Source of the DNA: Polytrichum commune
Lineage: Eukaryota > Streptophyta > Polytrichopsida > Polytrichales > Polytrichaceae
NCBI GenBank assembly: GCA_950295325.1
Contig: OX485805.1
Location: 2,542,501-2,606,500, forward strand
Reading direction: 5' to 3'
Length of the DNA stretch: 64,000 nucleotides
The notes under the pieces are model-generated. The model had not been told where the DNA came from. It worked only from the letters and a program-made list of their open reading frames with translations, and searched no databases. Below are positions 41,493 through 64,000 of this stretch, piece after piece (the stretch's first letter is position 1; each line of letters opens with the position of its first letter). The position numbers and the translations under genes were made by a program.

Positions 41493-44400
41493 TCATTCAA
41501 CGTGGGTTGCTTCTTCTGCGATCCGAGCAAGGTTGTCTTTTGCAAAAGTTATGTACTTTTGAGGGATGGACACTGATCCACTATGATTTTTCCGTGGTTT
41601 CCATGCTATGAATATGGAATCTTTATCTACCCAAGATGGACCGTGCTCAGAATCCACCTTCCACCGAAAGTTAGGGTTTGTATCCCAACCTGTATAATGC
41701 CAAACAACATCTTCATTCCGTGTTGTCGGTCGGTAGTACTCTACTTGTATTTGTCGAAAATGAGGGCTGCAAGTTACAAAATTTGGTTTGGACAAAGCTC
41801 TTGCCACCCACACTGGCTTTGCATATGTCTCATCTCCAGGACGCAAAATGAGCATATAACCTTCATGACAATCCACTGCAATGCGGAAAGATGGTGGCGG
41901 ACGACTACTAGCAGGCCCCACGTAATGGTCGTCCACATCAAACTCCTCTCGAACCTCTCCATTTCCCAAAAGACTAGCCTCCGAAGCTTGTACATTGACA
42001 CGTGTTTGTGGCCAAAACCCATGCCTTAAAGTAAGGGGTGTATCTTGATGAAGGTTTGCCAAAGCGCCACGAACACGTGTCCAATATTGTATCCAACTTC
42101 CGTAACGAAGCCAACACGATCCACCAACATCCGCTACCCTCAAACTCTCCCAATATTGTATGAAGCCTGATATGCCTTTACAAATGTCCTCCAAATTCTT
42201 CATGGGTATTGGTTTGCAAGGCTTAGGCTCTCCGTCAGGCAACATCGTCCTTCCCTCCCCATCAACACGCCATACAAGGAGACCCTCCGGCGGACTCCAG
42301 TCTTGTGACGTGCACAACAACTTGTATTGCATGGCGGGGACACCATCGTCACGCACGTAGAACCGAAATTGTTGTGCCTTTGTATGTCCGATCAATCGGT
42401 GAGCTCCGCTTCGAATATACGGTTCTATAAATGCCTTGAAGTCTGGAACCTCCTCGATCATATGGGGGATGACGGGAATGTTCTCCAAATCCATGTACGA
42501 CTTCATCAACAATGGGATTGTCGGAAAATCCTCCTCGCGCAACTTCATGCTCCACTGCCCAAAAGATGCATCGATATCGTCGTGCGTGTGGCCTACCAAT
42601 AGAAAGGACACAAAAACCTCCTTGAAAATGCTTTTCGCAACCAACAACGACCAATATGCAAAAACATATCTACTTTTATTGTCCTTCGCACAATTGTCCA
42701 ATTGGACATGCAGAGTTGGGGGCAAATTCTTGGCAATCACATCTTCACTTGGTGGCTCCGGCAAGGAGTGCACGCATACATCTCTTCCATCCAAGACCGC
42801 TTCATATAGAGGTGTTGATCCCGAGTTTTCAAATAACAATCTTGATGAATAGGACGGCGGTTTCTCCAAATCACGTAAAAGCTTTGCAAATGACCCTATC
42901 GTGTGGTTTAAATCCGCCGGATACAAATCAAGAGCATAATGAGCATACTTGACATCACCATGTCCATGTGCAATCATCCCTGTAAAGCCAACCCAATGGT
43001 TTAATATTCAACTATAACACCAAAAAATTCACATGGTGTACATCTATGGCCCCAAGTACAAACCTAAAGCACAAATTTGTGTTTAGGTAATGCAATGCAA
43101 TTGTTATCGAAATCACCTGTAACCGATACAGGAAGCTTAAAAAGGCCGTCCGTGGTTTTTATTCGATTTGCAAAACATGGTGAGGCTGTTTTGGCATGGT
43201 CCATTTTGTCATGGATGATTGTAAGGACCTCCAAAGGCCTAGAGATGGACAAAGCTCTATTTGTGTAGTAATCATTACGGTATGCCTCTTGCATGTTCAC
43301 ATGCTTGAAATAGTTCATTTGATGTGCGGCATAGGACTCTGTCCCCATCGTGTGTGCATCTCGAAGGCGTTTCAACTTCTCGCATTTGGAACAACGGGCA
43401 AATTTGTCGCCTCGTCTTTTTGTGATGTATTCGCTAAAGTGAGATTTTTTTATTGCACTCAGTTTCGACAACGAAATAGGGTCCAACCCAACCTTCTCGC
43501 CAACTGCGTTTACGTCCAACAATATGTCTTTCCATTTCGTGCTTGTAGGAAGAACCTTCTCCACAACCTTTTCACCGGTTGCGAGTGTGCGTGTTTTGTG
43601 CGGCATTGCATCGGCAAGGGGGACAATGATGGTTGCCAGAGTGGCGGTTGCTTGTCTCGTTGATTCCCTTGGTTTCTTTAAGCCCGTATTCCCATGGTGA
43701 CGGGACCGGCGGCCTTCCTTGGCATACGCGGCTTGTCTATAAAATTCCGCTTTCGACACACTGTGAATGATGTACCATGCGGTACAACACACGTCTATGC
43801 TCTCAAGGGTAATGACCTTGCGACCCGCTCCGTTCACATGTATCGCCCTATGGACATCAAGTTTTTTGGTGGATCTTAGACGGAAATCTGCAAGCCACAT
43901 TTCCTCGCGGATGGCCTTCAATTTATCCCTTGGGAACAATTGGCAACAACGATGTACACAACAATCCTTTGTGGCAACTTCTCTAATGGACTCCTCACAA
44001 AGCAACCTTTGATGTTTACACTCATTTGCAGACGGAGTAGGACGTGCCAATGTATCGTACTTCCGTAGGCCTTTGCGTGGCCGAATGTTTGCTTGGAGCT
44101 CTTCTTGGATTTGGATGTGTCGTCGCTCATGCTCATGCAAATTAACCCCATCAATTGTCACATTCCTCAACGGCCACCTTCGCAACGAGAACCTATGAGT
44201 TGGATTCACTTCGGAATGTACGAGTGATTCCAATATAACAACTCCAACGTCCTCGGTGCCAAGGGGGTTTTCATCAATGCAATCTTGTGGATGTGTGTTA
44301 CAACAAATACCCTCCGCCACAGCAACTCCACTATCATTAACAAGTACTACATCCAAATTCACCCATAAAGCTCGTGAAAGCCCAGCACATTCCACAGTGG

Positions 44401-44560
44401 GGCAAGAAGGGGCAGATGGCGAAGGACTCCCCAAGTCACCTTCATCTGCATTGTCATCAAAACTATCCTCCCCAACAATGTCTAGCTCATCCCCAGACGT
44501 AGATTGGGTGTTGCCCATGTCGTCAGAGAAGGAATCCCCTCTTCCACCAACTCCCTCCAT
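41493..44560 (-). CDS. DUF7869-type transposase-like protein
   Basis: Two exons, 44560-43117 and 42979-41493, join in phase through a short GT-AG intron and give 976 aa. The start is the first ATG after a likely 3' splice site (tgtgtag) at about 44567, so a 5'-UTR intron is probable. The N-terminal ~100 residues are acidic and low-complexity. A zinc-knuckle-like CSKCEKL lies before IHDKMDHAKT (Asp at ~451 and 454). Exon 2 carries LHVQLDN (Asp ~576) and LLVGHTHDDID (~610-618). From memory, this spacing of DGMD, LDN and VGHTHxDID matches the DUF7869 family, which looks RNase-H/DDE-like and is often multicopy. A transposase origin is inference. The palindrome array starts about 180 bp upstream of the ATG. 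The reading frame is intact. Confidence 0.7.
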
Positions 44561-44736
44561 TGCGCCTACACACATGGAAAAAATGTAAGGGTCCAAAAGA
44601 ATCAAATATCGGAAAATGCAAGACACCATGATCAATGGGGACACCGAGGATGAAGACATTTCCAACACAACTACAATGTGAACTCCCAACACTGTGTGCA
44701 AGTCCAAAACAAGTTCCAGAAATTATTTTGGTGCGG

Positions 44737-45727
44737 GTTTGGGTCGACCGGCCCAAACCTCATAAGGGTCGGACTGAACCCCTAACACACTGGGGTAGGG
44801 GTTTGGGTCGACCGACCCAAACCTCACAAGGGTGCATCCACCCACACCAGGTAGGGGTTTGGGTCGGTCGACCCAAACCTGATAAGGGTCAGGAAAAAAC
44901 CCTAACACACTGGGGTAGGGGTTTGGGTCGATCGACCCAAACCTCACAAGGGTGCATCCACCCACACCAGGTAGGGGTTTGGGTCGGTCGACCCAAACCT
45001 GACAAGGGTCAGAAAAAAAAATCCTAACACACTGGGGTAGGGGTTTGGGTCGACCGACCCAAACCTCACAAGGGTACATCCACCCACACCAGGTAGGGGT
45101 TTGGGTCGGTCGACCCAAACTTGATAAGGGTCAGGAAAAAACCCTAACACACTGGGGTAGGGGTTTGGGTCGACCGACCCAAACCTCACAAGGGTGCATC
45201 CACCCACACCAGGTAGTGGTTTGGGTCGGTCGACCCAAACCTGACAAGGGTCAGAAAAAAACCCTAACACACTGGGGTAGGGGTTTGGGTCGACCGACCC
45301 AAACCTCACAAGGGTACATCCACCCACACCAGGTAGGGGTTTGGGTCAGTCGACCCAAACTTGATAAGGGTCAGGAAAAAACCCTAACACACTGGGGTAG
45401 GGGTTTGGGTCGACCGACCCAAACCTCACAAGGGTGCATCCACCCACACCAGGTAGTGGTTTGGGTCGGTCGACCCAAACCTGACAAGGGTTTGAAAGAA
45501 ACCCTAACACACTGGGGTAGGGGTTTGGGTCGACCGACCCAAACCTCACAAGGGTACATCCACCCACACCACGTAGGGGTTTGGGTCGGTCGATCCAAAC
45601 GTGATAAGGGTCAGGAAAAAACCCTAACACACTGGGGTTGGGGTTTGGGTCGACCGACCCAACCTGTTAAGGGTCAGACATAAACCCTAACACACTAGTG
45701 GACAGGTTTGGGTCGGTCGACCCAAAC
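44737..45727. repeat. 120-bp tandem array with 17 palindromes
   Basis: About eight units of roughly 120 bp. Each unit holds 'cctaacacactggggtag', a palindrome, 'ctcacaagggtgcatccaccc', a second palindrome and 'aagggtcaggaaaaaa'. The palindrome has arm GTTTGGGTCG, a two-base centre (AC, AT or GT) and the reverse complement of the arm. I count 17 palindromes, the first at 44737-44758 and the last at 45706-45727; most have perfect arms. Because 120 is a multiple of three, long frames run through both strands; these are artefacts. Confidence 0.95.
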
Positions 45728-46629
45728 CTCATAGGGTCAGACTCAAAACCCGCCAACACTAGTGTAAAGGTGAAGGTTCGCCCAAGTACACCACAAAATC
45801 CGGCGTATAATGCGGCGGATATTGCGTGGTGTGTTGAATTTGAGCTCATTGCAAAGTTCACGGTGGGCTTGCATGGTGTGGATAGGTGCTCATGAACTTG
45901 CATGCTATGGATAAGTGCTCATGAACGGCAGCATGCACGAACCTTGAAGTACAGCTCCTACTAAGAGTTCTCTCTACGAATTCGACAGCGGGAGAAGAGA
46001 AAAAAAGGACCGACTTTTGGGGGGTGCGCCCCTTTATACTATCCACCTCCGCTTCCCAGACTTAGTCATTGGATGCCTTCCCCGCCTTCTTCTCTTGCAG
46101 AGGTTATTTCAAACCTCCTGACAGAATTCCCTGTTTTCTGTTTATAGTAGAAAAATGCGCATCTATCAATGCCCCTCTGATACCCCAGCCGTCATATGAC
46201 TTAGTCTATGTTATTTAATCTATTTGTTTTGTTTTGTGTGGATATGACATACGCCATTGGGAGGAAGGGTGGCGGCCACATTAATTTTTTCAAGTATCAT
46301 CAAGGTATATTTCAACCAATATGTAGACCCAAACACAACTCCATTCAATGCTTTCAAGTGTAAACCTATTTAGATGGGGTTTGGGCCATTTGGAGGCTGC
46401 AATTATGAGAGAGTTTCCAAGGCTTGAGGCCATTGTCATGATGAATAGAATTATTTATTTGTCCCCCCTAAACCCTAAACCCTAGAACCTTGCTCTATTA
46501 TCTCGCATGCAAGAGTGGCAATGATGAACGTATGTGGACGTTGTTAAGGGGATACTAACTACCAATGTCCCTTTCTAGTTCAATCTTTTAATGTTACTTG
46601 AATCCATCCTCAAGTTCATTTCAAGTTTA
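45728..46629. other. Intergenic upstream region
   Basis: No coding gene seen. A telomere-like 'cccctaaaccctaaaccctag' is present at about 46466-46486. Confidence 0.4.
46033..46038 (-). promoter_or_regulatory. Possible TATA box of the DUF7869-type gene
   Basis: TATAAA on the minus strand in a GC-mixed context ('tataaaggggcgcacc'), about 1.5 kb upstream of the ATG. If used, the palindrome array would lie in a 5'-UTR intron ending at the acceptor near 44567. Tentative. Confidence 0.25.
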
Positions 46630-47465
46630 CTAATGTGTGAGAGCAAAACATCCAAGATTGGACCCTAAACCCTTATAACATCCACAACATGAAATACGCA
46701 TTGACTAAATACAAAACCAATTAGGATATCATGTTTAAACGTCCCATATAACATATTAACATGATCAAGATTGTATTTACTATGACCTTCCGATTAGACT
46801 CTTCTTCATATTATGCAAACAATATCTGTTATATCTTCCTCCATTATCTAATACACGTGGAGAGAACAATGAATAACAACATGATGTTGTGCTTCTCCGA
46901 TTTACTTTTACATGACATTCCATATATTAAATACATCATGAACGATGGTTTATTAGCGACTAATATGTGATTCCCTAAAGTGAGTGAAACATCCAAAGTT
47001 GGACCCCTAGCCCCTATTAACATCCACAATATTTCATGTTATGTGAATAAACACACGACCAATCAATATATCGCGTTTAAACGTCTCGAATAACAAATTA
47101 ACATAATCAACATCGTCTTCACTATAACCTTCCTATAAGACTCTTCTCACGAGTAAGACAATGTTATACATTGACATTGGATAGATTAATATGTTATAAC
47201 CCTATCTCCTAAACCCTAAACCCTAAACCCTAAACCCTAAACACCAAATGTAGTTGTGGTTCACTGATGCCCCCATATACAAACAACATCTATTTTATCT
47301 TGCGCCATCATCTAATATACATGGAAGGAACAGGGAATAACAACATGATTGCTTGAATGGCTTCATTTGATGTTGTGCTTATCCCATTTACTCTTATATC
47401 ACAATCTATATATTAAATAAATCATGAACCATGATTTATTGGCGACTATGTGATTCGTGAAAGTC
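46630..47465 (+). repeat. Degenerate tandem duplication, about 330-450 bp
   Basis: The block around 'gacccctaaccccyataacatcc', 'gtttaaacgtc' and 'accttccnatnagactcttct' at 46660-46805 recurs at 47000-47155. The block around 'ttatctaatacacgtggagagaaca' and 'atattaaatacatcatgaacgatg' at 46811-46975 recurs at 47270-47460. A telomeric repeat tract sits in the second copy. Confidence 0.65.
47212..47244 (+). repeat. Interstitial telomere-type repeats
   Basis: About four to five tandem CCCTAAA units, the plant telomere heptamer. Another short tract lies at 58651-58678. Confidence 0.9.
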
Positions 47466-49440
47466 ACGATCTAAGGGATGTACTTAAAACTTGAGCATGT
47501 TCGCATTTTCAAATAAGGATCGTGCATTTCAAAACCCTTGCAAAATGCAGTTGGGGAAGGTATTCATTTATTAGGCTCCATACTCAATTATTCTAAATTG
47601 TTCCACATGTTGGGGGGTGTGGGTAATTTTTTTTTTTCATTCAATATCGTGTGAATTGTTGGCATCATTGGTAAGGACTAAATGTGAATGGTTACATTGT
47701 TAAATATAACGCAATTATATGGTTTAAATTTTCCAACATGCTCAAACAAAAGAGAAACCAATGCCTTCAATGATTTTGGAAAATTTAGGGTATGGTGTCA
47801 TGTAAGTAGGGGATAAGTATTAGTTTAGCATAAAGTTTTGTTGTAAGAATGCGCTGGCTATATAAATGGTTAGTTTTGTAGAATAACACATTTTATGTAG
47901 CACCTTAGGGTACTCCATAGTTTTTTTGAAAAAACTAATAAGGGTTTAGAGCAGGGTCCAAAAGAACCTAAACCCTAAAATTCGCTAATTTGAGATTTTC
48001 TCTTCTCTCAAATTAATATATGGACCACAACAACATAGTGTAATGTTTAGGTCGTCCTACCTAAACCATCTTCATATGAGATCTTAATTGCGTTCTTGAT
48101 ATGAACACCCGCTTCAAAGTATTTGCATCTTACAACATTCTCCAATGTACGTGCGATTTTATCCATGTTCTTATATTTGTAACTTTCTCAAAATGCCGAA
48201 AAAATCCCAAATTAACGAATATACCGATTAAAACAAATGCAGCCTACAAAATTAGTGACTTAGCCTATAAAATTTTGAAAGTGTAGGACAAAGAGCCTAT
48301 GGACAATTTAAAAACATAGGATATCAACCTATGTGATAAAAACAATTAGGAAATTTTGCCTAAATTTTTTTTAAAAGAAAGGATTTTAGCCATTCATCCT
48401 TCTTCAAATTGGGAAATTAGTTGGCCTAAGTACATATCTTTAGGCTATATCTTGCAGGAAGAGTAGAGGTTGAATGAGAACATGGTGAGAACTTTCACCC
48501 TTAAACTCATTTGAATTTTAGCAACCTTTCATAACTTATAATCAACTCTTTAAAAAAGACTTGGTTAATCCTTGGCCTTCAAACGTGGTGAAAGGCTTAG
48601 CCAGGTTCAATTCCTGCCAAGGATCCCACTTAGTACTCAAATTTTGATTTTAAAACCTACAACATTAAAAGATATGAAGGATTTTAACCTACTAAAAATT
48701 AGTTTTGAGGCAATTGGCGAGGAACTTACAAACTCAAAAGGTTTTCAACTTACAAAAAGTTGATATTGTAGAATGCAACCTATGCTATGAGGCAAATAGC
48801 CTATGTACTCTTAAAGAGGTAGGCCCGCTAAGGGTTTAGAGTCAAGCGTTATGATTTAGGTTTTAGGGTTCCCTGTAACCCTGTTTCCGTGGGTGCCCTA
48901 ATCCTGTGGGCACCCTATTCATGCGGTTGGGGGCCAATGCCCGAGGTAAACAAAACCCCAACCGTCGCATTTCTCATTTCTTTCTTTCTCTCTCTTTCTT
49001 TCTCTCTCTCTTTCTTTCTCTCTCTCTCTCCGCGCCTCGCTTGGAAGCGCCGCCTCTCCTGAAGTGCCGCTTTCGCAAAGCGCCGCGGCGAATCAGGCTT
49101 GGTGTAGGTTAACCCTTCATTCTCCCGCGTTCATTGCTTTCTTCTGCATCTTCTTTTCCCTCCTTTCTTTTGCTCTTCAATAGAATAGCCCTTGTGCAAG
49201 CTTAGAAGTTAGGAAGAGTTTTGAAAGAAACAGAAACATACGGAGGAAGGTTTTAGAGCGTGAGAGTGAAGGAAGTTAGCAAAAGAGTGTTGAAGAGTAT
49301 TGGAAAGTGCTGAAGGAAGTTAGTAGAACATTGTGTAGTAGATAAAGCTTCGGTTTGGGAGGTCCAGGTGTTTGTACTGGAAGTTTTAGGAGTGCTTGTG
49401 AAATTCAAGAGTTCTTTAAGAGTATCAAGAGTTGTTTGAG
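47466..49440. other. 5' region upstream of the ParB-like gene
   Basis: AT-rich up to about 48840, then GC-rich with a CT microsatellite at 48978-49030, consistent with promoter and 5' UTR. A box-B-like CCAGGTTCAATTCCTGCC at about 48600-48617 looks tRNA- or SINE-derived, but no complete tRNA folds there. Confidence 0.35.
48044..48235 (+). repeat. Left member of a flanking direct repeat
   Basis: Begins with a variant palindrome (GTTTAGGTCG, centre, CTACCTAAAC) and continues through 'aacacccgcttcaaagtatttgc', 'atcttacaacattctccaatgt' and 'ctcaaaatgcc'. The same order recurs at 57548-57731 in the same orientation, roughly three quarters identical by eye. The pair brackets the ParB-like/HAD gene. 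Confidence 0.75.
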
Positions 49441-49700
49441 AGTTTTCGAAGTCGTTTGAGAGATTCAGTAGTTTTGTGAGGGATTCAGGAGTGGGTTTAG
49501 ACATTTCGAAGTCTTTTGAGAGGTTTAGTAGTTGTGTGTGAGATTCAGGAGTTGGTTTGGACATTTCGAAGGCTTTTGAGAGGTTTAGTAGTTGTGTGTG
49601 AGATTCAGGAGTTGGTTTAGACATTTCGAAGTCTTTTGAGAGATTCAGTAGTTCTGTGTGAGATTCAGGAGTTGGTTGAGAGATCCAAGAGCTATTTGAG
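49441..49700 (+). repeat. 60-bp tandem repeat in the probable 5' UTR
   Basis: Four to five units with period 60 containing 'gagattcaggagttggttt', 'gacatttcgaag' and 'cttttgagaggtttagtagtt'. The repeat makes an artefactual repetitive frame on the minus strand. It lies just upstream of a candidate 5' splice site at 49819. Confidence 0.75.
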
Positions 49701-49936
49701 AGAGTTGATACTTGTTTGAAAGTTTCTCATTGAACTTTCTCACAGTTTGTTTGATATTGAGAATTATTGGAAGAACAACCTGCTCTACTCCAAATTGTCT
49801 GCACAACATCTTTGAAAGGTATTGTGTTTTATTTTAACCAATATGTGTTTGTATATTCACGGTTTTGTAGCATACACAATGCATAAGCATTGTATATGCT
49901 AGATGCCAAGTTTTAAAAATACATTAAAATAATATT

Positions 49937-50327
49937 GTTTGGGGAGACGACCCAAACACAGCCCCTTGTTTGGGTCGCTCGACCCAAACACAAAACAAAG
50001 CATCATGTTTGGGCCGAACGACCAAAATATAACACAAAGCATCATGTTTGGGTCGAACGACCCAAACTAAGTCTTCTAATTATAAACTCATAAAGAAATC
50101 CATGATTTTTGCATCAATATAAAATTCACATCAACCCAAAATAATAATCAAGGAATGTATCAAGGAAAAGTATCAAGGAATCCTGCATGTCACAAACAAT
50201 ATAAAATGCAAATCCACCCAATAATCACAACATTCTTATTATCATTACAAATGATGCTGAAATATATAAATACACAATCCACCTAAACCTATTCATGTCG
50301 TAGATGTTTGGGTCGAACGACCGGAAC
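49937..50327 (+). repeat. Five palindromes in the proposed 5'-UTR intron
   Basis: Palindrome copies at 49937-49957 (imperfect), 49968-49989 (centre CT), 50007-50028 (imperfect), 50046-50067 (centre AA) and 50306-50327 (imperfect right arm). They fall inside a likely intron from donor 49819 (gaaag|gtattg) to acceptor 50353 (cttacag) directly before the ATG at 50354. Confidence 0.75.
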
Positions 50328-50353
50328 TAACTTTGCGCATTATTTTCTTACAG

Positions 50354-53300
50354 ATGGCTCCAAAGAAAAGACCCGGCGAAAGGTGGTTCATGCCTGCGCC
50401 GGACATGTTGTGGCAGGAGCACGAAACCCCGCAGGATGGCTCCTATTCCCCTAAGGACGGGCTTGTCCTCGCTTGGTCTATTCAAGTAGTCAAAGCCTCA
50501 ACATACAAAATGATTTTTGTTGTCAAGGTGGGAACCGTGGAGAAACACACCTGGGCGACTCTTACGGGATGGGAGGTCGCATCGGTACAGTCTCTTGGAG
50601 ACTATACTGACGTCATCCTCGAGAACTCGGCTGTGCAGAACGCGCATATGTTCATGCACCAGTTCTCCGAGCCTTTCGACGCACTCTATGCAAGAGAGTC
50701 CTGTGTCGAACCGGAAGTTATCAAGCCGGAGACAATATTTATCGATGGGAGTACATCGAATACCAAGGTCTCAAGCCGGTTCACAAAACTAAAACATGCA
50801 ATAACCGTGCTGAACAGGGGCCTGCAAAGCAAAACCAAATCACAGCAACCTGTGAGGCGGAAAGCTCCCACAGAGGAAGGAGCAGGGTCGTCAAGACCTC
50901 AATCGGTGAGGATGCCGCTACCAGTACCGGCTGACTCGCGTAGGACCACTCCCTCCCAAACACCTACGAATAGTGAGACCCCTACACCTTCTGGGAGCCG
51001 TCAAACAACTCCATCCAAGAGGGGGAGAGAGTCATCTGTGATGACTGACGAGCCAGTCTCACCGGAGTTGCGCATGCCGAAGCCCGGCGAAGAGGTGGAT
51101 GTAGGGGAGCTGCAGAAAATCGTGAACAATTTCACGACGAAATGCTCCCACTGTTTTTTTATGGGCAGGGATTTCAAGTTCGACGTGAACATCAGCCAGT
51201 GCCATCTAGCGCCACCGGAGAAGTGTGTCCGGGCAAAGGAGGACGCCTACGTTGACTGGATAATTGCGCAGATCGTTTGCGAGCAGTTTAAAGACGACAT
51301 GCAAACGATTGTAGTGATGCCACAGGGTCTCAAGAAAATGCCTACACCTGAAATGTGGCCAACAATTCAGAAGGGCGATTTTTGGCTGATAGACGGCCAA
51401 CACAACGTGGAGGCATCCAAGAAAATCCAACTCATGAATGAGTGGGACGATCCCAACAATCAGAAGGAAAAGCTGAAGGTTTGGAAGGCACTGGTGGTGT
51501 GGTCTGACGACGAGACCAAACTCAGCGACATCTCCCGGTACTTCAATATGGGAAACAAGAAGAGGGCCTACCAAGCTTCCTGGATAAGGAATATCATGGC
51601 CTCGCAGGAGGTGTGGGAGTTCTATGGTAGGCCTCCCAAGGAGAGGGAGAATGCGAAGGACAAGAATCCCAAGTGGGAGGTGAGTATTGTTTGGGTCGAC
51701 CGACCCAAACTCCTGGTGCAGTCTTGTGTTTTTTTTAGTTTGGGTCGATCGACCCAAACAACTGTTGCAGTCTTGTGTTTTTTTAGTTTGGGTCGATCGA
51801 CCCAAACAACTGTTGCAGTCTTGTGTTTTTTTTCCAGTTTGGGTCGACCGACCCAAACTCTTGTTGTAGATGTTGGTCATGATATGGTTTGGAAATCACA
51901 TGTACTTAACTAACACGCATTCAAATGTTCTGTGTTGTTCACGTGTAGGATTTCAAATACCAAATGATCAACAAATTCTCCTCCATTGATAATTCGAGCC
52001 ACAAGCAGAAGAAATACATCGACCTGAAGGGGGAGATTTACTTGATTACAACATCGGACTCAGTTTGGAGGAAGTGGAAAACCGTGTTTGAAAAGCACGA
52101 GACGGGGGATTTGATCGACCCTGACACTGACGCTTTCTTCAGCCTGGCCTCGCGCTTCAAGCAGATGAAACCTCTCGTGAGAGAGTTCTTTAGAACTCTT
52201 CAAGGGCTGTCAGAGACGGAGGTGGAAAAGGCGGCATCGCACATCCTGCACGTGGCACCCACGGCCAAGAGGTGCTGGATGCACCCGAAGATTGTCTTCG
52301 TAAAGCCCAAATCCTTCGTTCCTTCATGCTACACCATGAAGGAATGGACGGAGAACATGAAAAAGAAGACGACTATCGTGCAGGAGCTGCATAAATTGGT
52401 GCCAGAGAGGAATATTGTCGTGGACGGCGAGGTTCATGGGACTAACTGGAGAGCATTCAAAGATGAATATAAGTTCACCAGTGCCTCCATGGCGGCTCTA
52501 ATAAGGGAAGCGGGGGACGACTTCTTGCGGGCCAAGATGGTGAAGGGTGGGAAGAACCGGGTGCTTCCGGATCACACAGCGCGTGCGTTCTCGAACTTCA
52601 TCAAGGAGAAGAAGATTGTCTAGTTTGAAGGGGACGCTTATTTCAACCTTGTCACCTTCGAGCCTTTGAAAATTCAGGGCTGGCCAGGTCAAGACGCCAG
52701 AATGGCGATAAGGACGAAAGCAAGGGACCGCTTTCCTTTTGGGATGATTGATTTTAGAAATATTCCTGGAAGCTCATTTGAGGGCACGATGAGCACCCTC
52801 TTCTATGACCCCTTCTTAACTAAGTTCGTCGATTATGCAAGCCCTAAGTTCAGGGAGGTAGATATCTGGCTTTGGATAGTCGAGGATAGAAGGGCGGAGC
52901 AGGTGTACGAGCTTGTCCGGAAACTGCAACCGGAGTATGCAGTGTCCAAGTCTCACTACATCGCCGCACCGGCGGAGGGGGCTTACACGACGTTGAAGGA
53001 CAAGAAGACCAAGTTCGTCAACGTCTTGTGTTTGTACTTCGTGTACAAAGCAGAGTTGCTGAAGGTGCCAAACCACCCTATATTCCGGATGGACAAACTC
53101 TTCCAAGTTCCAGAAGGGTTGGGTGCGAACAAGTGCCTCTACGACGAGGCTAAATACGCGAACTATCCTGCAGACGAGCTGCGGATGGAATTTTACATGA
53201 GAATGATGAGGACGCTGACGAGGAGAGGGGACTGCATCTTCAACGTCTTCGGAGGCTCAAAACCTGTCTATGCTGCTATGGTAAGTGACTTTCTATAGCT

Positions 53301-56266
53301 CGTAAGCAGTTTGGGTCGATCGACCCAAACTAGGCTCTTTGCAGGTTTAGGTCGACCGACCCAAACTAGGCTCTTTGCAGGTTTGGGTCGACCGGCCCAA
53401 ACTACACATTTCACTTAGTCTTGTTTATGTGACTGCCTCGACAAATTCTAATTTCCCTATAACTTGGATTGTGTAGATGTTGGGGCTGAATATATACTCC
53501 TACATAGAGGATGGCGATCTGCCATTTTATAGGGTACAGAAATCGCTGGCGAAGAAGATGGACATCCTCGATTGGATCCCGGGTAGCTACGTCGACGAGG
53601 TTGTTCAGGGTGGCGAAAACCCTCTTGATAGGGTGAGGCGCATCAACCCGGAGGAAATGGCCATGAGGGCCACGACCCAAGTTCCCGAACCTCTGGTCGG
53701 GTTGCATCCGGGCAATCCGTCCCGCACAGAAGGTGGCGAGGTTGAGGAGGAGGAGGAGGAAGAAGAGGAACACGAGGAGGCGGAGAAGGAAGGCGACGTC
53801 GAGGAAGGGGCAACGGGCTTCACGCAACAATCCAAAGCCCCTCAACGGAAGAAGGCGATGCGGGCGGTAACCCCGCAGAGTAAGCTCGTGCCCGTCCTGA
53901 CTGTGGACGATGCACGGGACATGTACTCCAGGGACGCCACCGCGACGTTCAGGGAGAGGAGGAAGTTAAAGGGGAAGAAGCTGTATGGCGACTACTCCGT
54001 GGAGGAGACCATTGCCATAAGTAGCGAGGACGACGATGACATTGAGCTCGCCAAACGGCTAAGATCAGATCCCCCGTCCCCGACAGTGTTCGCTGGCATG
54101 GTTAGGGTGAAGCCCGAGGTCCTGACTGTGGAGGAGGTGAACGAGAAGATGAGGAGGGACGAGGAGCAGCGAGTCCGCCTGCAGAAGGCTGCCGCGGAAG
54201 AACCCTCAATGCGGAACGAGGTCGCAGAGCTGAGGGCTCTCCTGTTGGACCAGGAGCGTCAAAGGGCGATGGCCCAACCTCCGTCCCACGCCGACTTGAT
54301 ATCACAAGTGATACAAGGAATGTGGGCGCAAGGTTTGGTGGTGGCTCCCTCCAGCTCCTTCCCGCACTTGCCCCCCGGCTTCCTTCCGCAGAGCATCCCT
54401 CAGCAGCCTGTGCCGCAATCGTCTTTCAGCTTCCAACACTTGATGCGGCCCCACCAAGTTCCGTACGCGCCGGTCCAGCAAGTGGATGACCCCAACATCT
54501 GGCGCGTCTCTGGAGCCTCCTCCCCTTTGGGCCCTCCACCACTTCGGCCCCCCATAGTCATGGCGCCACCCCACCAATCGGACGACCCCAGGATGTTTGG
54601 GTCGACCGACCCAAACCCACCATCCACTGTAGTGTCCGAAGGGCCCTCTCCAGATGCAGGACAGTTTGGGTCGGGCGACCCAAACCCCGTTGCAACGCAG
54701 TCCTCCCTTGACCAACATGGGTGTCAACTAGACACGGCCATGCTAGATGTTGAAGGCCTGCAAGGGCCTGGTGATACCTCTACTCCTAACCAAATCGATG
54801 AACCCATGCATGATGCACATGCGGAGATTGGTTTAGGACAAGGGCCTGATGCCGATCGTTTGCAGGAGAAGGTTCCTGACGTCGTCGGAGAAGGCGGTGG
54901 CGAGAGAGGCGGGGCAGCGGGGACGGTGGAGGCTTCCACATCGTCGAGACATGACCAGGGCGAGGTAATACACTGAGCCCTCCCAGTTTGGGTCGACCGA
55001 CCCAAACTTCCTAGGTCACTGTCTTGTTGGCGTGGTCGTGTCCCCCTTGCTAGGAGGAAATGCACACCCCCTGCCCCCCCTGGTCTACACTTGCTCCCCC
55101 TCCCCCCAACGTGCCCCCCCGCGATCCCCTTCGTCTCCCCTGCATTCGACTACGCTCGACCTTGGCGGCGCGCAACCAATTTTGTAGATGTAGAATTAGG
55201 ATAGTGTGAATGCCCTCGTTCACCGCGTCCCCCCCCCCCCAAATCAAATTGTACATAGAGATTTGTAAAAATAAAATTATTATTTTTGGCGCCCATATGT
55301 TTGCATCCGTGTCCCAATGTATGTTGTTCCCTTGTATGTTTTTGTTGCCACCAATGGTCCAATTCTTCTTGTGTTTGCACAAAATTTCCGTTCTGCTTGA
55401 GATGGACATAGCATAACATAGTCCTCGCCGCCTTCTCTCGCTCGTCGCCGCAGGGTTCGGAGCATAGCGTCGCAGCTCCCCACCGATCCTCTCCGAGGAG
55501 TGTGGAGGACAGCGCGGTGGTCCCCCCGATTTTGCCCTCGCCACCTTCGCCTCCCAAGACCCGGTTTCTGGTGCTAGACCTCAACGGGGTCCTTGTCCAG
55601 TGCGTGCATTGTCCGAGGGTCCCCACGGTGCCTTTCTGCAAGCCCGAGGACGCCAACTACGATGGACACCCCGCGTACATCAAAAGCAAGCTAGTGTACC
55701 TCCGCCCGTCCCTTCGGCGCTTCCTACAGGTCACCCTATCCAAATGGTGGGTGATCATTTGGAGCTCCATGAAGTCCGAGAATACCCAGGCCGTCGTGGA
55801 GTTCATCTTCAAGGGACTCCAACCCCCGTGCTTGGTCCTAGGACAGGATTCTTGTAAAACATTGTACACCCCCAAGGGCAGGGTTGTGAAGAAGCCCAAC
55901 AACCCCGCCGTAAACCAATTTCTTAAGGTCTTGAAGCCAGTCGTATGGGACCAGCGTCCGACCATGGTCGGCTGTCCCTACGACGTTCGCCCCACCCGTG
56001 ACAACACGTTGATGGTGGACGACAGCGCTTCCAAAAACATTTTGAACCCGACCTCGAACTTCATAGTTTGCCCGACGTGGACGGTCGAGAAGGTCCGAGA
56101 CCGCTTTTTGTTAGACCTACTTAAGTACATTCAAACGCTCGTGGGGAGCGGACTACCCGTGCCCCGGTTCCTTAGTTGTAATCCGATAGGCGAAAGATAC
56201 ATGGATCCGAAGGACTATATGTACAGAGAGTTGTACGCTCACGCGAAATATAATAAACTCATTTGA
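50354..56266 (+). CDS. Multidomain ParB/DGQH-like, methyltransferase-like and HAD phosphatase-like fusion, with in-frame TAG
   Basis: Four exons join through in-phase (phase 0) GT-AG introns: 50354-51679, 51949-53280, 53477-54964, 55454-56266; about 1,652 codons. N-terminal ~130 residues are unrecognised, then a Pro/Ser/Thr linker. WLIDGQHNVEASK (DGQH at 347-350) after IVVMPQ resembles the ParB/DGQHR nuclease fold. Exon 2 holds LFYDPF (Asp ~729). NVFGGSKPVYAAM (FGGSK at 876-880) continues across the intron into LGLNIYSYIED. That order, catalytic-like motif then SAM-loop-like motif, matches beta-class N4/N6 DNA methyltransferases, but key glycines and the DPPY motif are degraded. Exon 3 is acidic, charged and Pro-rich. 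Exon 4, lacking its own ATG, encodes an FCP1/NLI-type HAD domain with DLNGV (Asp ~1424) and MVDDS. A TAG at 52621-52623 (codon 667) breaks exon 2. A GT...AG pair at 52540/52677 could remove it in phase. No function is claimed. Confidence 0.65.
51689..51858 (+). repeat. Four palindromes in intron 1 of the ParB-like gene
   Basis: Perfect palindromes at 51689-51710, 51738-51759, 51786-51807 and 51837-51858 with centres AC or AT, in about 48-bp tandem units that share 'aactgttgcagtcttgtgttttt'. All lie between donor 51680 and acceptor 51948. Confidence 0.95.
53309..53402 (+). repeat. Three palindromes in intron 2 of the ParB-like gene
   Basis: Copies at 53309-53330, 53344-53365 and 53381-53402, spaced about 36 bp and separated by 'taggctctttgcag'. 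They occupy about half of the 196-bp intron. Confidence 0.95.
54595..54685 (+). repeat. Two palindromes inside coding exon 3
   Basis: Palindromes at 54595-54616 (centre AC) and 54664-54685 (centre GG) are read in the same frame as FGSTDPNP and FGSGDPNP. Both keep full arms. Confidence 0.95.
54986..55007 (+). repeat. Palindrome in intron 3 of the ParB-like gene
   Basis: A perfect copy with centre AC, 22 bp after the 5' splice site at 54965. Confidence 0.95.
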
Positions 56267-56385
56267 GATACTACATGGTGTGCCATTGTGTGTGATATAT
56301 TATGCCTCAAATGTATATCGATTTTCACATGCTCCCCCCTCCCCCCTTCCCCTTGGGTTTTGTTTTGTTTCCTTTTTTGCGCCAG

Positions 56386-57192
56386 CGTTTGGAGCCCTCG
56401 ATTGAGATCGTCAGCGAATCAAACTTGGGGAGCTTCTTCTACGAGACCGTCTACGATGCCGCGTCCACCATCGACTACTCCAAGGAGCCTCTTGACGCCG
56501 GCGTCGTCGATAGCCCCCCACCCAAGCAAATCTTCCGGCGATCTCCGTCCCCGTCGCCGCTCAAGGGCATAAATCGCAAATGCGTCCGGACGTCCCCCTC
56601 TCGGCCCGGCGGCAGTAGTACACCTCAACGGCGGCTGCGGATGGACGCTCGGCCTACGAAGAGTGGCACCCTTCCTATTCCTTTGCGGGACGCATTGCCC
56701 CTCCTCGCCGACTCCGACGGGAACGCCCCCGGTGACAAGGTGAACCCCCCCCCCCCCCCAAAAACATGGTTAACCGCGCATTACAATCATCCGGCACTTA
56801 AAAAATGAACGTGTGACACGTTTGGGTCTTCCTCCCTAAACTAACACGTGTGTTCTTGCATTCACGCGTTGCAGGTTGCTCCCACCCGTAGACCTATGCG
56901 GGCTAGTGCGTCCGTCGAGTTGGAGCATTTCTACTCCATGACCAGAAATGCAAGACAGTCCACTTCATCGTATTCGAATTCTTCGTCGTATAATTCGGGC
57001 GGCCGACGGAATCCAAAATGTGTTATTGATGGCGGTCACCCCAAGAATGGCTATAGTCGCGGGGCGGAGATTTTCAGGAATGTTGAAGCAATGCGAGCAA
57101 AAGAAGCCGCAGCAAAAGAAAAAGAGGCAAAAGAAAAAAAAGCAAAAGAAAATGAAGCAAAAGAAAAAGAGGTAGTCTCCGAGGCTAGATAG
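56386..57192 (+). CDS. Additional 3' coding exons of the ParB-like/HAD locus
   Basis: Two exons (56386-56739 and 56875-57192) join in phase 0 by a GT-AG intron and encode about 224 residues. There is an acidic start with SFFYETVYDAA, an SP-rich basic middle, a Ser/Tyr/Gly-rich part and a Lys/Glu/Ala-rich coiled-coil-like tail built on KEKEAKE repeats, ending in a stop at 57190. A pyrimidine-rich tract and cag precede 56386, so this looks like an internal exon. The HAD exon stops 120 bp earlier, so a junction to it is not obvious. The exon 3 donor at 54964 is also phase 0 and could skip the HAD exon. A separate start at ATG 56302 is possible. The intron between these exons holds a degenerate palindrome ('gtttgggtcttcctccctaaac'). 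Confidence 0.45.
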
Positions 57193-57358
57193 GCCATAGT
57201 AGGCGTAGGGTTTTGGGCCATAGGCAAGAACATTTTGGGTCGCACTATCCAATGGATGTGTTGTGTTAGCATGCTATGCATTTTACATGCCACACTTTGT
57301 ATGTTTTTTTTTTGCAATAATATAAGTGTCACATGATTTCCCCTTCCATATGGTCTAA

Positions 57359-57731
57359 GGTTTGGATTGCCCTACCTAAACCATCACAAATATGAGTTTG
57401 GAATATTTTGTATGTTATTTTATATTGGTTCACATATTTCCCCTTCAATATGATCTATGGTTTGGATTGCCCTACCTAAACCATATTCATACAAGTTTTT
57501 GTGCGATAATATGAATGTTTTAAGATTTCCCCTTCAACTTGGCCTAAGGTTTGGATTGCCCACCCTAAACAATCCCAAATATTGAGTTATTAACGGGGTT
57601 CTTGTTCTAAACACCCGCTTCAAAGTGTTTGCATCTTACAACTTTCTCCAATATGTGTTCCATTTATCCTTGTTCTTATTTCTGTGAATGTCTCAAAATG
57701 CCCAAAAAGTCTCAATTTAACGAATATAGTG
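57359..57731 (+). repeat. Variant palindromes and right member of the flanking direct repeat
   Basis: Three variant palindromes of the form 'ggtttggattgccctacctaaacc' lie at about 57359, 57460 and 57546. From 57548 the sequence parallels 48044-48235 ('aacacccgcttcaaagtgtttgc', 'atcttacaactttctccaat', 'ctcaaaatgcccaaaaag'). Same orientation, about 9.5 kb apart. Confidence 0.75.
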
Positions 57732-57903
57732 TTCTTGCATCTTTTCCTTTTACAATGTACCTAGGCTAAGTATATTTTGTAAATCATTATCCCAATAAAA
57801 CCTCCTCTTGTGCACTCATGTATGTTCTCATAGGCCTAGACAAGTGCAACCCCCAAGGACCAATATATCATGTCCGTGCTCCACATTGACGTTCTTGTCT
57901 CTA

Positions 57904-60900
57904 TTAGTTTTTGTGTATTTTTAAGATAGATAGGGAGTCTGCGTCCGCGATCAAATTGACTTGAGCAAAACCTCCCGCAAGAGCTAATTGCTGCATCTCA
58001 CGTTCAGTACGCTCTCGAGCCCCATCTCTAAGGCCGATCATCATTGAGAGATCAAGACGGAAAGCCAATTTGTCATGAAGATTGTCCGGGTTGGTGATCT
58101 TAGGCAAGAGGCATTCCACTACAATCACCTTTCCTTTGGCGGGAAGAGAATTGTAGCAGTTTCTCAATAACTTGATGTTGTGGTTGTCATCCCAGTTGTG
58201 CAATATAAACTGCCAAATTTGCAATACATCATGCCCACGTGCCAACCCTGATTACAATCATTTTCTTGGAACATTTTTCAATTTGTTCAGAGACGAAGTG
58301 ATGAGCGCTATATATTACAACGTTAGAAAACTAGTGGTAAATTCGACAAGTGTTCTAAGTGGTGGGCTGAATAAGCAGTTGACTCTAGAAATGAGGATGT
58401 CATGATATACAAATGGCTTTCCTGTACATACAAACTAACCTAATGTATCTTGACTTATGACTCTTGAATAATTACCTTCAGGGGCCATTCACGATCAGGG
58501 TACTACTTTCGGGACACATGACTTAAGGACTTTGTCGCATTGATCTTGGTTTTTATCATGATTTACTATTATTTGATCAATAAATTTTACATAAACAAGT
58601 AGATAGTTCATAAGCTTTATCAAGAAAGATTTTTATTATTATTTAATAATCACCCTAAACCCTAAACCCTAAACCCTAGGCCACATCAGTGGCATTTTTT
58701 TGCTATTTAGGTGTGCATTGGTGGTCAATTATTTCTTGTTATGTATCTTGGTACCTTGGTAAAAGTGTCATGTGTCCATTCATATAAATTTTTTTGTCCA
58801 ATTCTAATACTAGACGTTCCTTTTACGTGTGGCCGTGAGTATATGTATATTTGGACATGTTTGGTGCCACATGTAAAGTTGGGCAATTGCTATTCAATAC
58901 ATATTTGGTTCTATTGGTACACACTTGAACGATGATTGTGAGGAAACAATTTGGGATCGTTTCGATTGATTCTTGTTGTCCTTTTCATTCCTTGATCCTA
59001 AGGTGAACAATGAAGACAGCGGTCCTGAATGTCCTTTAAGGAATCAAAAGGATATCTTAGATGACCCTATTCCTTCTAAATTAACTTTGTCAATGTACTT
59101 GATATGGAGTATGAAATGCAGGTATGATCCAAAATATGCTTCACAATACAAATGTAAGCATACCAAGCATGTGAAGTTATCCAAAAAAGTCCGTTTTCCG
59201 TTAGACGGCCAAAAGTAGTACCCTGATTGTGAATGGCCCCTTCATGAAGATGGTGTCACCGGAAGGAACACTTGTGAACATGTCTCCACCTAAGAACTCC
59301 ACTTCTGCCAACATTCAAGTCCTTAAATTTGAGCAATTTTATACAATGACAACCCTTGAATGACCATGAAAACTACTTTCAACCATTTTTCCACTTTGAA
59401 ACTCCACATATATAGATACACTAATATTCTTGAAGAACCTGATCTAAGGTGATAGATTATGAGTTATTAGGGGTTTCACCCAATGAATGAATTCGAACAA
59501 CTCTTGGTTGCAAGCTTGGTAATGTGGAACAAAAAAGTGCTCCGGTACACTAAAACCATAATGTTTTTAGTCAAAGGCCTAAAAATAAATGCTTTGTTAT
59601 TATTTAAATTGGATTTTGTTGTTATTATTATTATTATTATTATTATTTTCTATGATGACCTCTATTGTTGTGTTAAACACTCAAATGTAGAATATCACGT
59701 TGACATCTTCAATACATAGCATCAAAAGTGATGCTCAAAAGCAAATGGTTGAGTTTGGTTTTAGATGTAGATATCATGGCCTTAGCTATTTTGTATTCCT
59801 TGAATTCATTATCTACTTGAGGGCATCATCACAAAACTTTGTAGAAAACCAACAATTTAATGTAATATTATCATATTTTAAACAAATTCTAGACAATCAC
59901 TTATTTAATATCACCTACTTGCACACCACTTGCACCGTCTTTTGAAAAATGTAGACTTCTCTTGGATTCTTTTTTGTCATTACAAATTGCTTGGCTTTGT
60001 AAATCAGTTTGTTTTTAAAATGTCGATGATGTTTTTCTTCACAAGATTCAAAGTCAATACATAAAATTGAATCACTTTCACTTAACACTAGGCATGGATC
60101 AAGAGTTGTCCACTTTCCAGGGCTTGCACCCTCTTCACAACATTACATGAAAAGCTTCATGTGAGCCTACCCAAGCTAGTACTGACAATAATTTGCACAA
60201 AATAGGTGCACTTTGATAAGGCATTCTACAGGTGATGCAGACGCCCCGTGAGTCAAGTATTGAATCTAAAAGAAAACGACCTGGCTGTGTGACATTTGAA
60301 TAATTTAAAGGTATGTCAATAAGTTTAAGATATGTAGGCCTTATTGGGAAGAAATCTTCAATAAGATGCATACCGAATTCAAATAATGGTGCGTCGGACA
60401 ACCTTCCAAAATCTAAGCTAGAAACATTCAAAACTGTATGATTCTAGTAAAAGTAACTATTCTCAGCCCTTAGTACACAGATTTAATGCTGGACTTGAAT
60501 TAATAGATTCACACCTTGACGCGGCACACACGACGCAATCACATGAGGCAGGTCGAAATTGATGCCGTGGATGTGAGGATACCGCTCCGTGATGGCGCCC
60601 AGAGTGGATCCCAAGCCGCCTCCCACGTCCACCAACACTCTCACATCCTTGAACCCCTCGTATTTCTCCAAAATCGTATTCATACTCAACCTCGACTGGT
60701 TGAGCATCGCCTGGTTGAACAGCTCAGCTGCTTGCGCGTTCTCTTGCTTGGCTTGGTATTCCCACAAGTGCATGCCATGCGCCATCTTGAAAGGCTCATG
60801 GTCGGGCTTATTTTCAAGCACAGCCTCATGAATGTGATGATAAGTCATCCTCACAAATGGGGCATCTCGGAACACAACAATCTGCGCAAGCGATCCGGCC

Positions 60901-61612: not shown

Positions 61613-61951
61613 ATTCCTGCCCTCCGCTCTCCTCATATGTATGTAAAATATGGCGGAGGTTAGGTTCCTCCCACGAACTTTCCAGGGTAGGAATGTTCGG
61701 GCAGGGGCAGCCGCCCGTCAGATTTTTTGGACCCGACCGAAAACTGCTGCCCGCCCGCCCGACTTCGGAAAAAACTATTGTCCTTGCATTCTTGAAGGTC
61801 ACTTATCCACAAATCCCATATTGAGTGTACTCCATTTTCAAGGTCCCAAATCCAATATATATGTTCACTTCCAATGAGTAAATAAACAATTGATTGGTTT
61901 TCATTTACAAAGTGAAACTGCCAATGTTAATTAACTTGGAAGTTTAAAATA

Positions 61952-63061
61952 GGGGATCGCTATTTCCACACCTTTTTTGGCTAGATTCACACCTTTTTGC
62001 CGGTTCGGTTGCCGTGTCACTGAGGCGCTATATATGAGATTCTTCATGGTGTATCCGGACCGTTGATCCACCAAGGCCCATCCAAGGGCCTCAATGATCC
62101 TAGATGGCGGTGGGGTGGGGGGCGGGGGTGGTGCTTGCCACCAAGGCGGGGTGGGGCCGTGGGCCTCATGTCTTTTTTGGGGAGGCCGGATTTAGGGTGG
62201 TGTCGGGCCTAGTGGCTAGGCGGGCCCAGTGGCTAGGCCTACTTACTAAATAACTAGTTGGTTAGCCTTACACTACTTACTAAATGACTAGTTGTTTACC
62301 CTTACTCTACTTACTAAATGACTAGTTGGTTCCCCTTACTCTACTTACTAAATGACTAGTTGGTTACCCTTACTCTACTTACTAAATGACTAGTTGTTAG
62401 GGATGATACATAGATTATGTAATGTAGGTGACACTAAGTAGGATAGTGTAATCTTATTATATCTCAACACTTATAGGTGTCCATACCTAACTTCAAGTAC
62501 TAAGTAATAACCAACTATTATTACTATTAAGTAATAAGTAAGGGTAACCAACTAGTTATTTAGTAAGTAGAGTAAGGGTAACCAACTAGTCATTTAGTAA
62601 GTAGAGTAAGGGTAACCAACTAGTCATTTAGTAAGTAGAGTAAGGGTAACCAACTAGTCATTTAGTAAGTAGAGTAAGGATAAACAACTAGTCATTTAGT
62701 AAGTAGTGTAAGGCTAACCAACTAGTTATTTAGTAAGTAGAGTAAGGGTAACCAACTAGTTATATAATAAGTAGGCCTAACCACTGGGCCCGCCTAGCCA
62801 CTAGGCCCGACACCACCCTAAATCCGGCCTCCCCAAAAAAGACACGAGGCCCACGGCCCCACCCCGCCTTGGTGGCAAGCACCACCCCCGCCCCCCACCC
62901 CACCGCCACCTAGGATCATTGAGGCCCTTGGATGGGCCTTGGTGGATCAACGGTCCGGATACACCATGAAGAATCTCATATATAGCGCCTTAGTGACACG
63001 GCAACTGAACCGGCAAAAAGGTGTGAATCTAGCCAAAAAAGGTGTGGAAATAGCGATCCCC
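61952..63061. mobile_element. 1.1-kb foldback element with 8-bp target-site duplication
   Basis: Flanked by perfect TTAAAATA duplications (61944-61951, 63062-63069). The termini start GGGGATCGCTATTTCCACAC and stay inverted-repeat for about 300 bp. The inner part has 34-bp tandem units ('taaatgactagttggttacc' type), about four on the left (62241-62395) and about seven in inverse on the right (62520-62775), separated by some 125 bp. An 8-bp duplication is typical of hAT and some Mutator-like elements. No coding sequence. Confidence 0.85.
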
Positions 63062-63081
63062 TTAAAATATTACGAAATCCT

Positions 63082-63687
63082 CATTAGCACTCAGGTTATA
63101 ATTTTTGTGACTTACAATTGAAAGGGTCTTTGTCATTCTAAAATGAAACTAAAAGTAACAATTTTTTTTAATATTTAATATTTTTTAGTTAATACCTTCT
63201 ATTATCACAAAGTTTTCATACACATTTAAACTAGTAAAGTGTGATTGAATGCAACTAAGTCTAATTTTTTTTATTAATCATGATTAATTCTAATTAAGCC
63301 CAATTAAATAAGAAAGAGTGCTAATAAAAATAATTAAGCCTAATTAATTATAAATTTTACTTACTGGAATTAATCATGATTTAATAGAATTATAGAATTA
63401 ACTCCAGTAAATATAATTTATAAATTAATTAGGCTTAATTATTCTGGTAAGAATATTTTCTGATTCAATTCGGCTTCATTAGGATTAATCAGAATTAATT
63501 AGACTTAGTTACATTCAATCACATTTAATTAATTTAAATGCATATGAATACTTTGTGAAAGTAGAAGTTATTAACTAGACTATAATTTTTAACATATAAA
63601 AAACAAATCACTAATTTTAGTTTCATTTTAGAATGACAAAGTCCCTTTCAATGGTAAGTCACAAAAATTATAACCTCAGTGCTAATG
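63082..63687. mobile_element. 606-bp AT-rich inverted-repeat element
   Basis: Sequence starting CATTAGCACTCAGGTTATAA returns inverted, ending at 63687 (TTATAACCTCAGTGCTAATG), with the inverted similarity extending nearly to the centre. Internal AT-rich 'aattaagcctaattaatt' blocks are palindromic themselves. Target duplication is unclear. It directly abuts the next element. Confidence 0.75.
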
Positions 63688-64000
63688 GGGCCATTCACGG
63701 TTAGGGTACTACTTTTGGCCGTCTAACGGAAAACGGACTTTTTGGGATAACTTCACATGCTTGGTATGCTTACATTTGTATTGTGAAGCATATTTTGGAT
63801 CATACCTGCATTTCATACTCCATATCGAGTACACTAACAAAGTTAATTTAGAAGGAATAGGGTCATCTAAGATATCCTTTTGATTCCTTAAAGGACATTC
63901 AGGACCGCTGTCTTAATTGTTCACCTTAAGATCAAGGAATGAAAAGGACAACAAGAATCAATCGGAACGATCCCAAATTTTTTCCTCACACTCATCGTTC
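63687..64000. mobile_element. Second copy of the 760-bp TIR element, cut by the window end
   Basis: Starts GGGGCCATTCACGGTTAGGG and matches, in inverse, 58930-59240 of the element in the O-methyltransferase gene with few differences. It runs off the window. Confidence 0.85.

Follow-up and report, generated by a model that had tools for sequence, protein, structure and literature searches.

Anti-silencing by a sequence-specific protein that a transposon itself encodes is well described for the VANDAL elements, and TnpA of Spm and MURA of MuDR provide related examples (PMC10398659). In the Arabidopsis transposon VANDAL21 this protein is VANC21 (PMC5735166; PMC10398659), and the VANC motifs lie upstream of VANA and within the introns of VANB and VANC, arranged in tandem and varying from one family to the next (PMC5735166). 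Here we describe a 16,771 bp DNA transposon at 40963–57733 of a 64,000-nucleotide stretch of Polytrichum commune DNA (contig OX485805.1, positions 2,542,501 to 2,606,500 of the forward strand; this whole stretch is referred to as the window, and coordinates are given in it). The plus-strand gene of this transposon consists of exons that had earlier been flagged, in what we call the original prediction, as a plant gene. Judged by published accounts of VANDAL21 and VANC21, the two systems share a high-copy, multi-gene plant DNA transposon and a short family-varying motif that occupies non-coding parts, often as tandem repeats, with motif positions upstream of the transposase gene and in the introns of an accessory gene. 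The window element differs in its DUF7869 transposase-like gene, its 4 bp target-site duplication (TSD) and its DGQHR/HAD-like accessory protein, and the VANDAL21 motif is the nine-base YAGTATTAY, whereas the motif here is a palindrome of 20–24 bp; the analogy to VANC is one of layout. Fungal DNA transposons encoding TET/JBP proteins also have an accessory gene, one believed to act against epigenetic silencing, but the enzyme is a different one and family-specific palindromes go unmentioned in the portions of that report available to us (PMC12730594). No description of the present element was found in paper searches confined to an open-access collection.

The element is bounded by terminal inverted repeats (TIRs) that begin AACACTATATTCG. 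The left repeat (AACACTATATTCGTTAAATTGAGACTTT) occupies 40963–40990 on the plus strand and the right repeat 57706–57733 on the minus strand, flanked by the duplication CTTG at 40959–40962 and 57734–57737. TSDs were assessed at the presumed ends of ten further copies, the window copy and one copy of a related family (502). Both ends were seen in eight of the ten further copies, the right end being absent from the sequence piece examined in the other two, and a direct 4 bp duplication was present in seven of these eight, with one pair (L019/L020) failing; the family 502 copy is flanked by CTAA. Altogether, nine of the ten elements with both ends seen have a 4 bp TSD. Genome-wide, at least 95 copies of exon 1 of the plus-strand gene were scored (95 from 1140 first-look candidates; 64 of the 95 contain no stop), together with at least 86 copies of the DUF7869 exon (from 1869 candidates) and at least 146 of the exon encoding the HAD domain (from 1258), all three numbers being lower bounds. 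A HAD exon lies 3–16 kb downstream on the same strand in 85 of the 95 exon 1 copies, whereas 200 random placements averaged 0.2 such cases and never exceeded 2; the HAD exon thus belongs with the ParB-like exon, as the original prediction held, and not to another gene, which would have refuted it. A divergent transposase-like gene is found upstream in 52 of the 95, only 86 transposase copies having been scored. Because order and linkage are kept genome-wide and homologous exons recur in diverged families, the exon arrangement is not due to chance, and the element is a two-gene, high-copy mobile DNA transposon of a plant-like genome. The original prediction had instead seen a plant host gene whose ancestor was a bacterial ParB–methyltransferase and which had gained a HAD domain. 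Although a DGQHR-like similarity, a resemblance to methyltransferase motif I and a HAD match (all discussed below) are what such a descent would leave, there are at least 95 close copies of the gene, and these are flanked by TIRs with TSDs and accompanied by a transposase gene. The proposal of a single host gene is refuted, and we regard this reading as highly improbable. The earlier observation had its parts right but set them in the wrong frame.

The plus-strand gene (50354–56266) has four exons, and its motifs and coordinates, with phase 0 junctions and GT–AG introns, were confirmed by reading the DNA. Exon 1 (50354–51679) encodes an N-terminal part and a ParB/DGQHR-like region (termed DGQH here) and carries WLIDGQHNVEASK. 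Exon 2 (51949–53280) encodes a central region, with LFYDPF and NVFGGSKPVYAAM, and a possible methyltransferase-like remnant; exon 3 (53477–54964) encodes an acidic low-complexity linker with MLGLNIYSYIED; and exon 4 (55454–56266) encodes a NIF/FCP1-like HAD domain (DLNGV, WSS and VDDS) and ends in NKLI-TGA. The introns occupy 51680–51948, 53281–53476 and 54965–55453. Homologous GT and AG sites at the exon 1–2 and 2–3 junctions are found in families 474, 513, 502 and 539 and in part in family 547, the exon boundaries of families 692 and 689 being approximate, and the acceptor of the HAD exon is in phase with exon 3. In six of eight elements the HAD exon terminates with TGA at the equivalent position. 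Four of eight elements, some with approximate boundaries, have an open exon 2; in the window copy an in-frame TAG (52621–52623) interrupts exon 2 in the stretch separating the DGQH part from LFYDPF, which means that this copy is disrupted. Two probable further exons, 56386–56739 (exon 5, phase 0, read from the sequence; an alternative 3′ end or a separate tail) and 56875–57192 (exon 6, ending in TAG), both on the plus strand, follow exon 4 in phase and could provide a second C-terminus. The exon 5-type open frames of families 539 and 547 are 52% identical to each other and resemble that of the window by eye. Single-sequence AlphaFold predictions gave low mean pLDDT values of 39.7 and 31.5.

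The second gene is divergent from the first and consists of two exons on the minus strand (44560–41493). Exon 1 (43117–44560) starts with MEGVGGRG, contains HDKMD and has homologs in families 474, 513, 502, 539 and 692; it gave no Pfam match. Exon 2 (41493–42979; splice ends read from the sequence) matches DUF7869 (PF25273, E = 3.5e-41) and carries the motifs LDNCAKDNKSRY and HTHDDID. DUF7869 is a family with no assigned function, and no description of it was found in paper searches of an open-access collection. Copy number, the TIR and TSD termini and the acidic motifs HDKMD, LDNCAKDN and HTHDDID lead us to infer that this gene encodes a transposase of the DDD/E type. The 4 bp TSD of the window element and its DDD-like acidic motifs, judged by eye, are also features of the Sola superfamily, to which the element might conceivably belong.

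Related families were picked from the exon 1 list by frame length (474 and 513) and from DUF7869 matches (502, 539, 692, 547, 689 and 975), and the gene order is the same in families 474, 513, 502, 539, 547, 689 and 692. The plus gene is 71–97% identical to that of the window in families 474, 513 and 502; family 539 retains 32% identity in the DGQH exon and 42% in the HAD part, and family 692 retains 34% in the HAD part and 27% in the central part. In family 692 only the central part and HAD are matched by window queries (tblastn), the DGQH exon being linked through families 689 and 547; in an alignment of the DGQH region the members of families 692 and 689 are 22 and 21% identical to the window. 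Ratios of non-synonymous to synonymous divergence (dN/dS, NG86) were obtained in seven of 11 plus-gene comparisons, the other four having no dS because synonymous sites were saturated. They are 0.095 and 0.063 for exon 1, 0.031 and 0.096 for the C-terminal part of exon 2 and 0.17–0.31 for HAD. The plus gene is thus under purifying selection, and values of 0.03–0.31 imply that its protein is used by the element. The dS of the transposase exon between the window and families 474 and 513 is 0.075 and 0.060, whereas that of exon 1 is 0.30 and 0.73. With transposase halves nearly identical and plus-gene halves diverged (window versus L029–L032), the elements look like mosaics that exchange halves.

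A feature that the original prediction did not record is a repeated palindrome. In the window it measures 20 bp, TTTGGGTCG-NN-CGACCCAAA, and occurs at 31 sites with at most two mismatches, 23 of them perfect, while shuffled sequence contains none. The same palindrome is common to families 474, 513 and 502 (37, 29 and 37 sites, respectively). Sister families, in which plus-gene identity falls to 21% in the DGQH region, have palindromes that are built alike and similarly placed but differ in sequence: TTTACGGACG-NN-CGTCCGTAAA in family 539, TTTACGAACG in 547, CCCACGGGTG in 692 and CCCACGGGCG in 689. Among 14 further DUF7869 loci, ten have a recurrent palindrome with arms of about 10 bp and a 2 bp spacer, and no arm recurred in shuffles of the 14 loci that keep base counts only (20 per locus). 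Perfect sites of three palindrome types number 9731, 1147 and 644 genome-wide, not split by location inside or outside such elements, and each reversed control gave 0. A separate dense array, with 17 perfect palindromes at a spacing of about 78 bp, was observed at G000:C1:616089-617357.

In the window element, 17 palindromes form a tandem array of 8.3 units of 120 bp (44735–45740) upstream of the transposase-like gene, four lie in the leader of the plus gene (49969–50326), four in intron 1 (51690–51857), three in intron 2, two in exon 3 (at 54596 and 54665) and one in intron 3 (at 54987). When tallied by feature over eight elements, with up to two mismatches allowed, all eight have sites in intron 1, in the leader of the plus gene and ahead of the transposase gene, seven have them in intron 2, seven in intron 3 and six in exon 3, and none has any in exon 1, exon 2 or the HAD exon; the exon 3 boundaries and exon 1 starts of families 547, 692 and 689, and the transposase starts, are approximate in this tally. 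Families 692 and 689 have extra sites 3′ of the HAD exon, and family 692 also has one in the transposase gene. The palindrome has a fixed design and is placed mostly in non-coding positions, with a sequence that differs between diverged families. In this respect the layout is VANC-like, a family-specific motif being repeated in non-coding parts of the element, with some sites also in coding exon 3.

Short-spacer inverted repeats in introns and a leader could in principle act as DNA or RNA hairpins, with a part in replication, intron structure or small RNAs, and not as protein sites. A hairpin, however, requires complementarity only, whereas the arm sequence is largely fixed within each family and it is the spacer that is more variable; the largest arrays, moreover, lie outside the predicted transcribed parts, and we consider this explanation improbable. 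The palindrome is unchanged between the window element and family 502 although exon 1 synonymous sites are saturated. Two half-sites within about 22 bp suit a symmetric dimer, and a protein encoded by the element probably binds the palindrome of its own family.

As to the protein involved, the palindromes could be binding sites of the transposase, serving as an enhancer or regulator of transposition, in which case the ParB-like/HAD protein would have another role. Divergence between families is seen in the transposase-like gene as well as in the palindromes, the largest array lies directly upstream of it, and degenerate relatives of the palindrome occur near both ends of the window element (three at 57360–57570 near the right end and others at 41154, near the left end, and 56820). 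The comparison of the window with family 513, in which the palindrome is kept at a dS of 0.06 in the transposase exon and 0.73 in the plus gene, is neutral or slightly in favour of the transposase. However, good sites are kilobases away from the TIRs and many fall within the plus gene, in its leader or introns, leading us to regard this assignment as rather unlikely. A role purely as transposase end sites is disfavoured, good sites lying 2.7–3.8 kb inside the ends in the four elements measured. We infer that the plus-gene product, as a dimer, is the likelier reader. Such a protein might simply repress or activate transcription of the element, independently of silencing marks; sites in both presumed promoter regions and in introns would fit, but those in introns 1, 2 and 3 and exon 3 exceed what a simple promoter operator needs, and autoregulation of this kind seems unlikely.

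As the best explanation, held tentatively and by analogy with VANC of VANDAL, we suggest that the plus gene encodes a sequence-specific regulator, perhaps an anti-silencing protein. The family-specific palindromes would then be part of a means of self-recognition through which the element may regulate itself or escape silencing. Its product would comprise a DGQH (ParB/DGQHR-like) part, a possible dead methyltransferase, the acidic linker and HAD; as a dimer it would bind the palindrome of its own family, binding would shield the promoters and introns of the element from host silencing, and the HAD part would act on partners in transcription or chromatin. The protective effect of binding, comparable to that of VANC on VANDAL elements, is a possibility that we put forward with more reserve. 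A more elaborate version, in the manner of ParB and parS, appears quite unlikely: the protein would load at the palindromes of its own element and spread along that element to exclude the silencing machinery, with the dead methyltransferase as DNA reader and HAD as effector, and protein and palindrome would co-diverge so that each family protects only itself.

CpG is present in all five palindrome types that are paired with a plus gene, and the observed/expected ratio of CpG is 0.76–0.97 in the exons, introns, leader and 3′ part of the element, compared with 0.38–0.60 in the flanks. Several observations weigh against the proposal of an anti-silencing regulator. The same ratio is only 0.47 for the main array and 0.59 for the intergenic stretch, so that high values in the genes and low values there make the ratio non-decisive, and a young age of the element would also explain mild CpG depletion. 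No helix–turn–helix or other DNA-binding domain was identified, and either of the two element proteins could be the palindrome reader. The degenerate relatives, such as GTTTGGATTGCCCTACCTAAAC, lie 163–374 bp from the right end and 191 bp from the left, a placement that transposase sites might have. Four of the 14 further DUF7869 loci (L042, L043, L044 and L046, with frames of 610, 588, 604 and 870) have no recurrent palindrome upstream. Finally, family 975 (L045, L054 and L055), the second-best-scoring DUF7869 match, has palindrome arrays of its own (GGGTGAGGCA, in units of about 60 bp, with no CpG) and a frame containing VDGQHVEHACNIL, yet tblastn gave no match to the plus-gene proteins at E up to 0.01 and no HAD was seen. 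As side observations, the four palindrome-free loci may be decayed copies or of another type, and family 975 perhaps represents an architecture without a HAD part.

The ParB/DGQHR identity proposed for the exon 1 part is moderately supported, on profile comparisons, chiefly through the diverged 692/689 sister family and one bacterial DGQHR group. Direct hidden Markov model (HMM) matches were non-significant: TIGR03187 (E = 0.42), DUF6551 (0.12) and DUF1015 (0.15), the latter two of which we take to be ParB-clan families, each matched one of six members, beside unrelated families at 0.04 and 0.39, and the NCBIfam model TIGR03187 ranked behind the unrelated match at 0.04. GQH is invariant in the six members, D is present in four, and R is replaced by N, S or T. 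An hhalign comparison of the six-family profile with 19 bacterial IDGQHR proteins (likely DGQHR proteins, kept by eye from 67 frames) gave 95%, and 5.8 to 88.8% with sub-groups, compared with 0.2% for a HAD control profile and 6.9% for an exon 2 control. The reference proteins had been chosen for containing IDGQHR, which inflates the share of the motif, and shuffles that keep the motif were therefore used. Most of the six-family score comes from the 18-residue motif itself, and it was reached by one of 40 such shuffles with the pooled reference and by 18, 4 and 2 of 40 with three sub-groups. The 692/689 family, in contrast, aligns over 75 columns that include an upstream RxIS segment, with a score of 44.6 against the pooled reference and a shuffle maximum of 35.8 (0 of 40 reach it). 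No shuffle of 40 reached its score against the largest group, g1; for groups g2–g7 the score was reached by 35, 4, 25, 4, 17 and 3 of 40.

Compared with the DGQHR/DndB/DUF262 (GmrS) branch of the ParB/Srx fold, as set out in a published account (PMC4619093), the plus gene shares (D/H/N)GQH after a hydrophobic stretch, an upstream Arg and a downstream Asn, and its 692/689 members share the 75-column profile match to the pooled reference; it differs in having Asn, Ser or Thr in place of the Arg of DGQHR and in its setting in a eukaryotic transposon. The QR pair and FxxxN described in that account (PMC4619093) are half kept by eye, with R and N invariant and Q and F not. A profile search of the PDB with the DGQH part gave unrelated matches only, Pfam searches with exons 1–3 gave nothing useful (best unrelated or weak matches at 0.11–0.39), and pattern-based scans found no relatives in viral contigs or in bacterial and archaeal genomes. 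A tblastn search of phages (E up to 10) with the exon 2 part returned four records and with the DGQH part a single one, at E = 1 to 3; the features at these places are hypothetical proteins, and the matches were dropped. The DGQH part may have a distant origin in bacteria.

The second claim of the original prediction, a methyltransferase-like part, stands as a weak resemblance at motif I, the S-adenosylmethionine (SAM) motif. The best local match pairs NVFGGSK with DPFxGSGT at a score of 26.3, above all 30 shuffles (maximum 21.1), but with a probability of only 9.7%. NVFGGSKPVYAAM-MLG aligns with DPFxGSGTTxxAAxxLG across the exon junction, and the plus-gene form aligned to motif I is N-x-[FC]-G-[GR]-x-K. 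The catalytic (D/N/S)PP(Y/F/W) is absent from exon 2 in all eight elements, and this part is possibly a non-catalytic methyltransferase remnant. A PDB profile search with it gave unrelated matches only; one of these, a cytochrome trimer at 7e-05, had no stretch that passes alone and was taken as an artefact.

The FCP1-like HAD domain was borne out, with a match of the exon to PF03031 (NIF) at E = 3.4e-13 (50 bits; cut-off 21.8). It shares with the NIF/FCP1-like phosphatases of this family the Asp nucleophile, WSS, Lys and DDS, and the nucleophile D, N, WSS, K and DDS are invariant in six members. It differs from them at the second Asp position of DxD, where every one of the six has Asn (DLNG or DVNG); this makes phosphatase activity doubtful. 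A profile search of the PDB found UBLCP1 at 0.0032, although no individual stretch passed, and a phmmer search with the HAD exon returned no match.

Three further features were observed within and beside the element. A 244 bp insertion at 47980–48223 has ends that resemble both ends of the large element, and is likely to be a nested non-autonomous derivative of it. Just beyond the right end, an O-methyltransferase-like open frame was recognized by eye at 57904–58251 on the minus strand. Further on, two long inverted repeats are nested, the outer at 58927–59240 and 63687–64000 (314 nt) and the inner at 61951–62396 and 62617–63062 (446 nt), both 96% complementary; the inner one consists partly of 34 bp tandem units, and the pair is probably a separate foldback-type repeat outside the element.

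The locus holds more interest as a transposon system than it would as a fused plant gene. If the proposed function is true, the layout known from VANDAL recurs with a different kind of protein in another transposon group, which would suggest that such systems arise repeatedly. Five natural palindrome types, some differing by one base per arm, are paired with a comparable plus gene (in the window element and in families 539, 547, 692 and 689), making recognition directly testable, and these protein–palindrome pairs could serve as orthogonal DNA-targeting tools.

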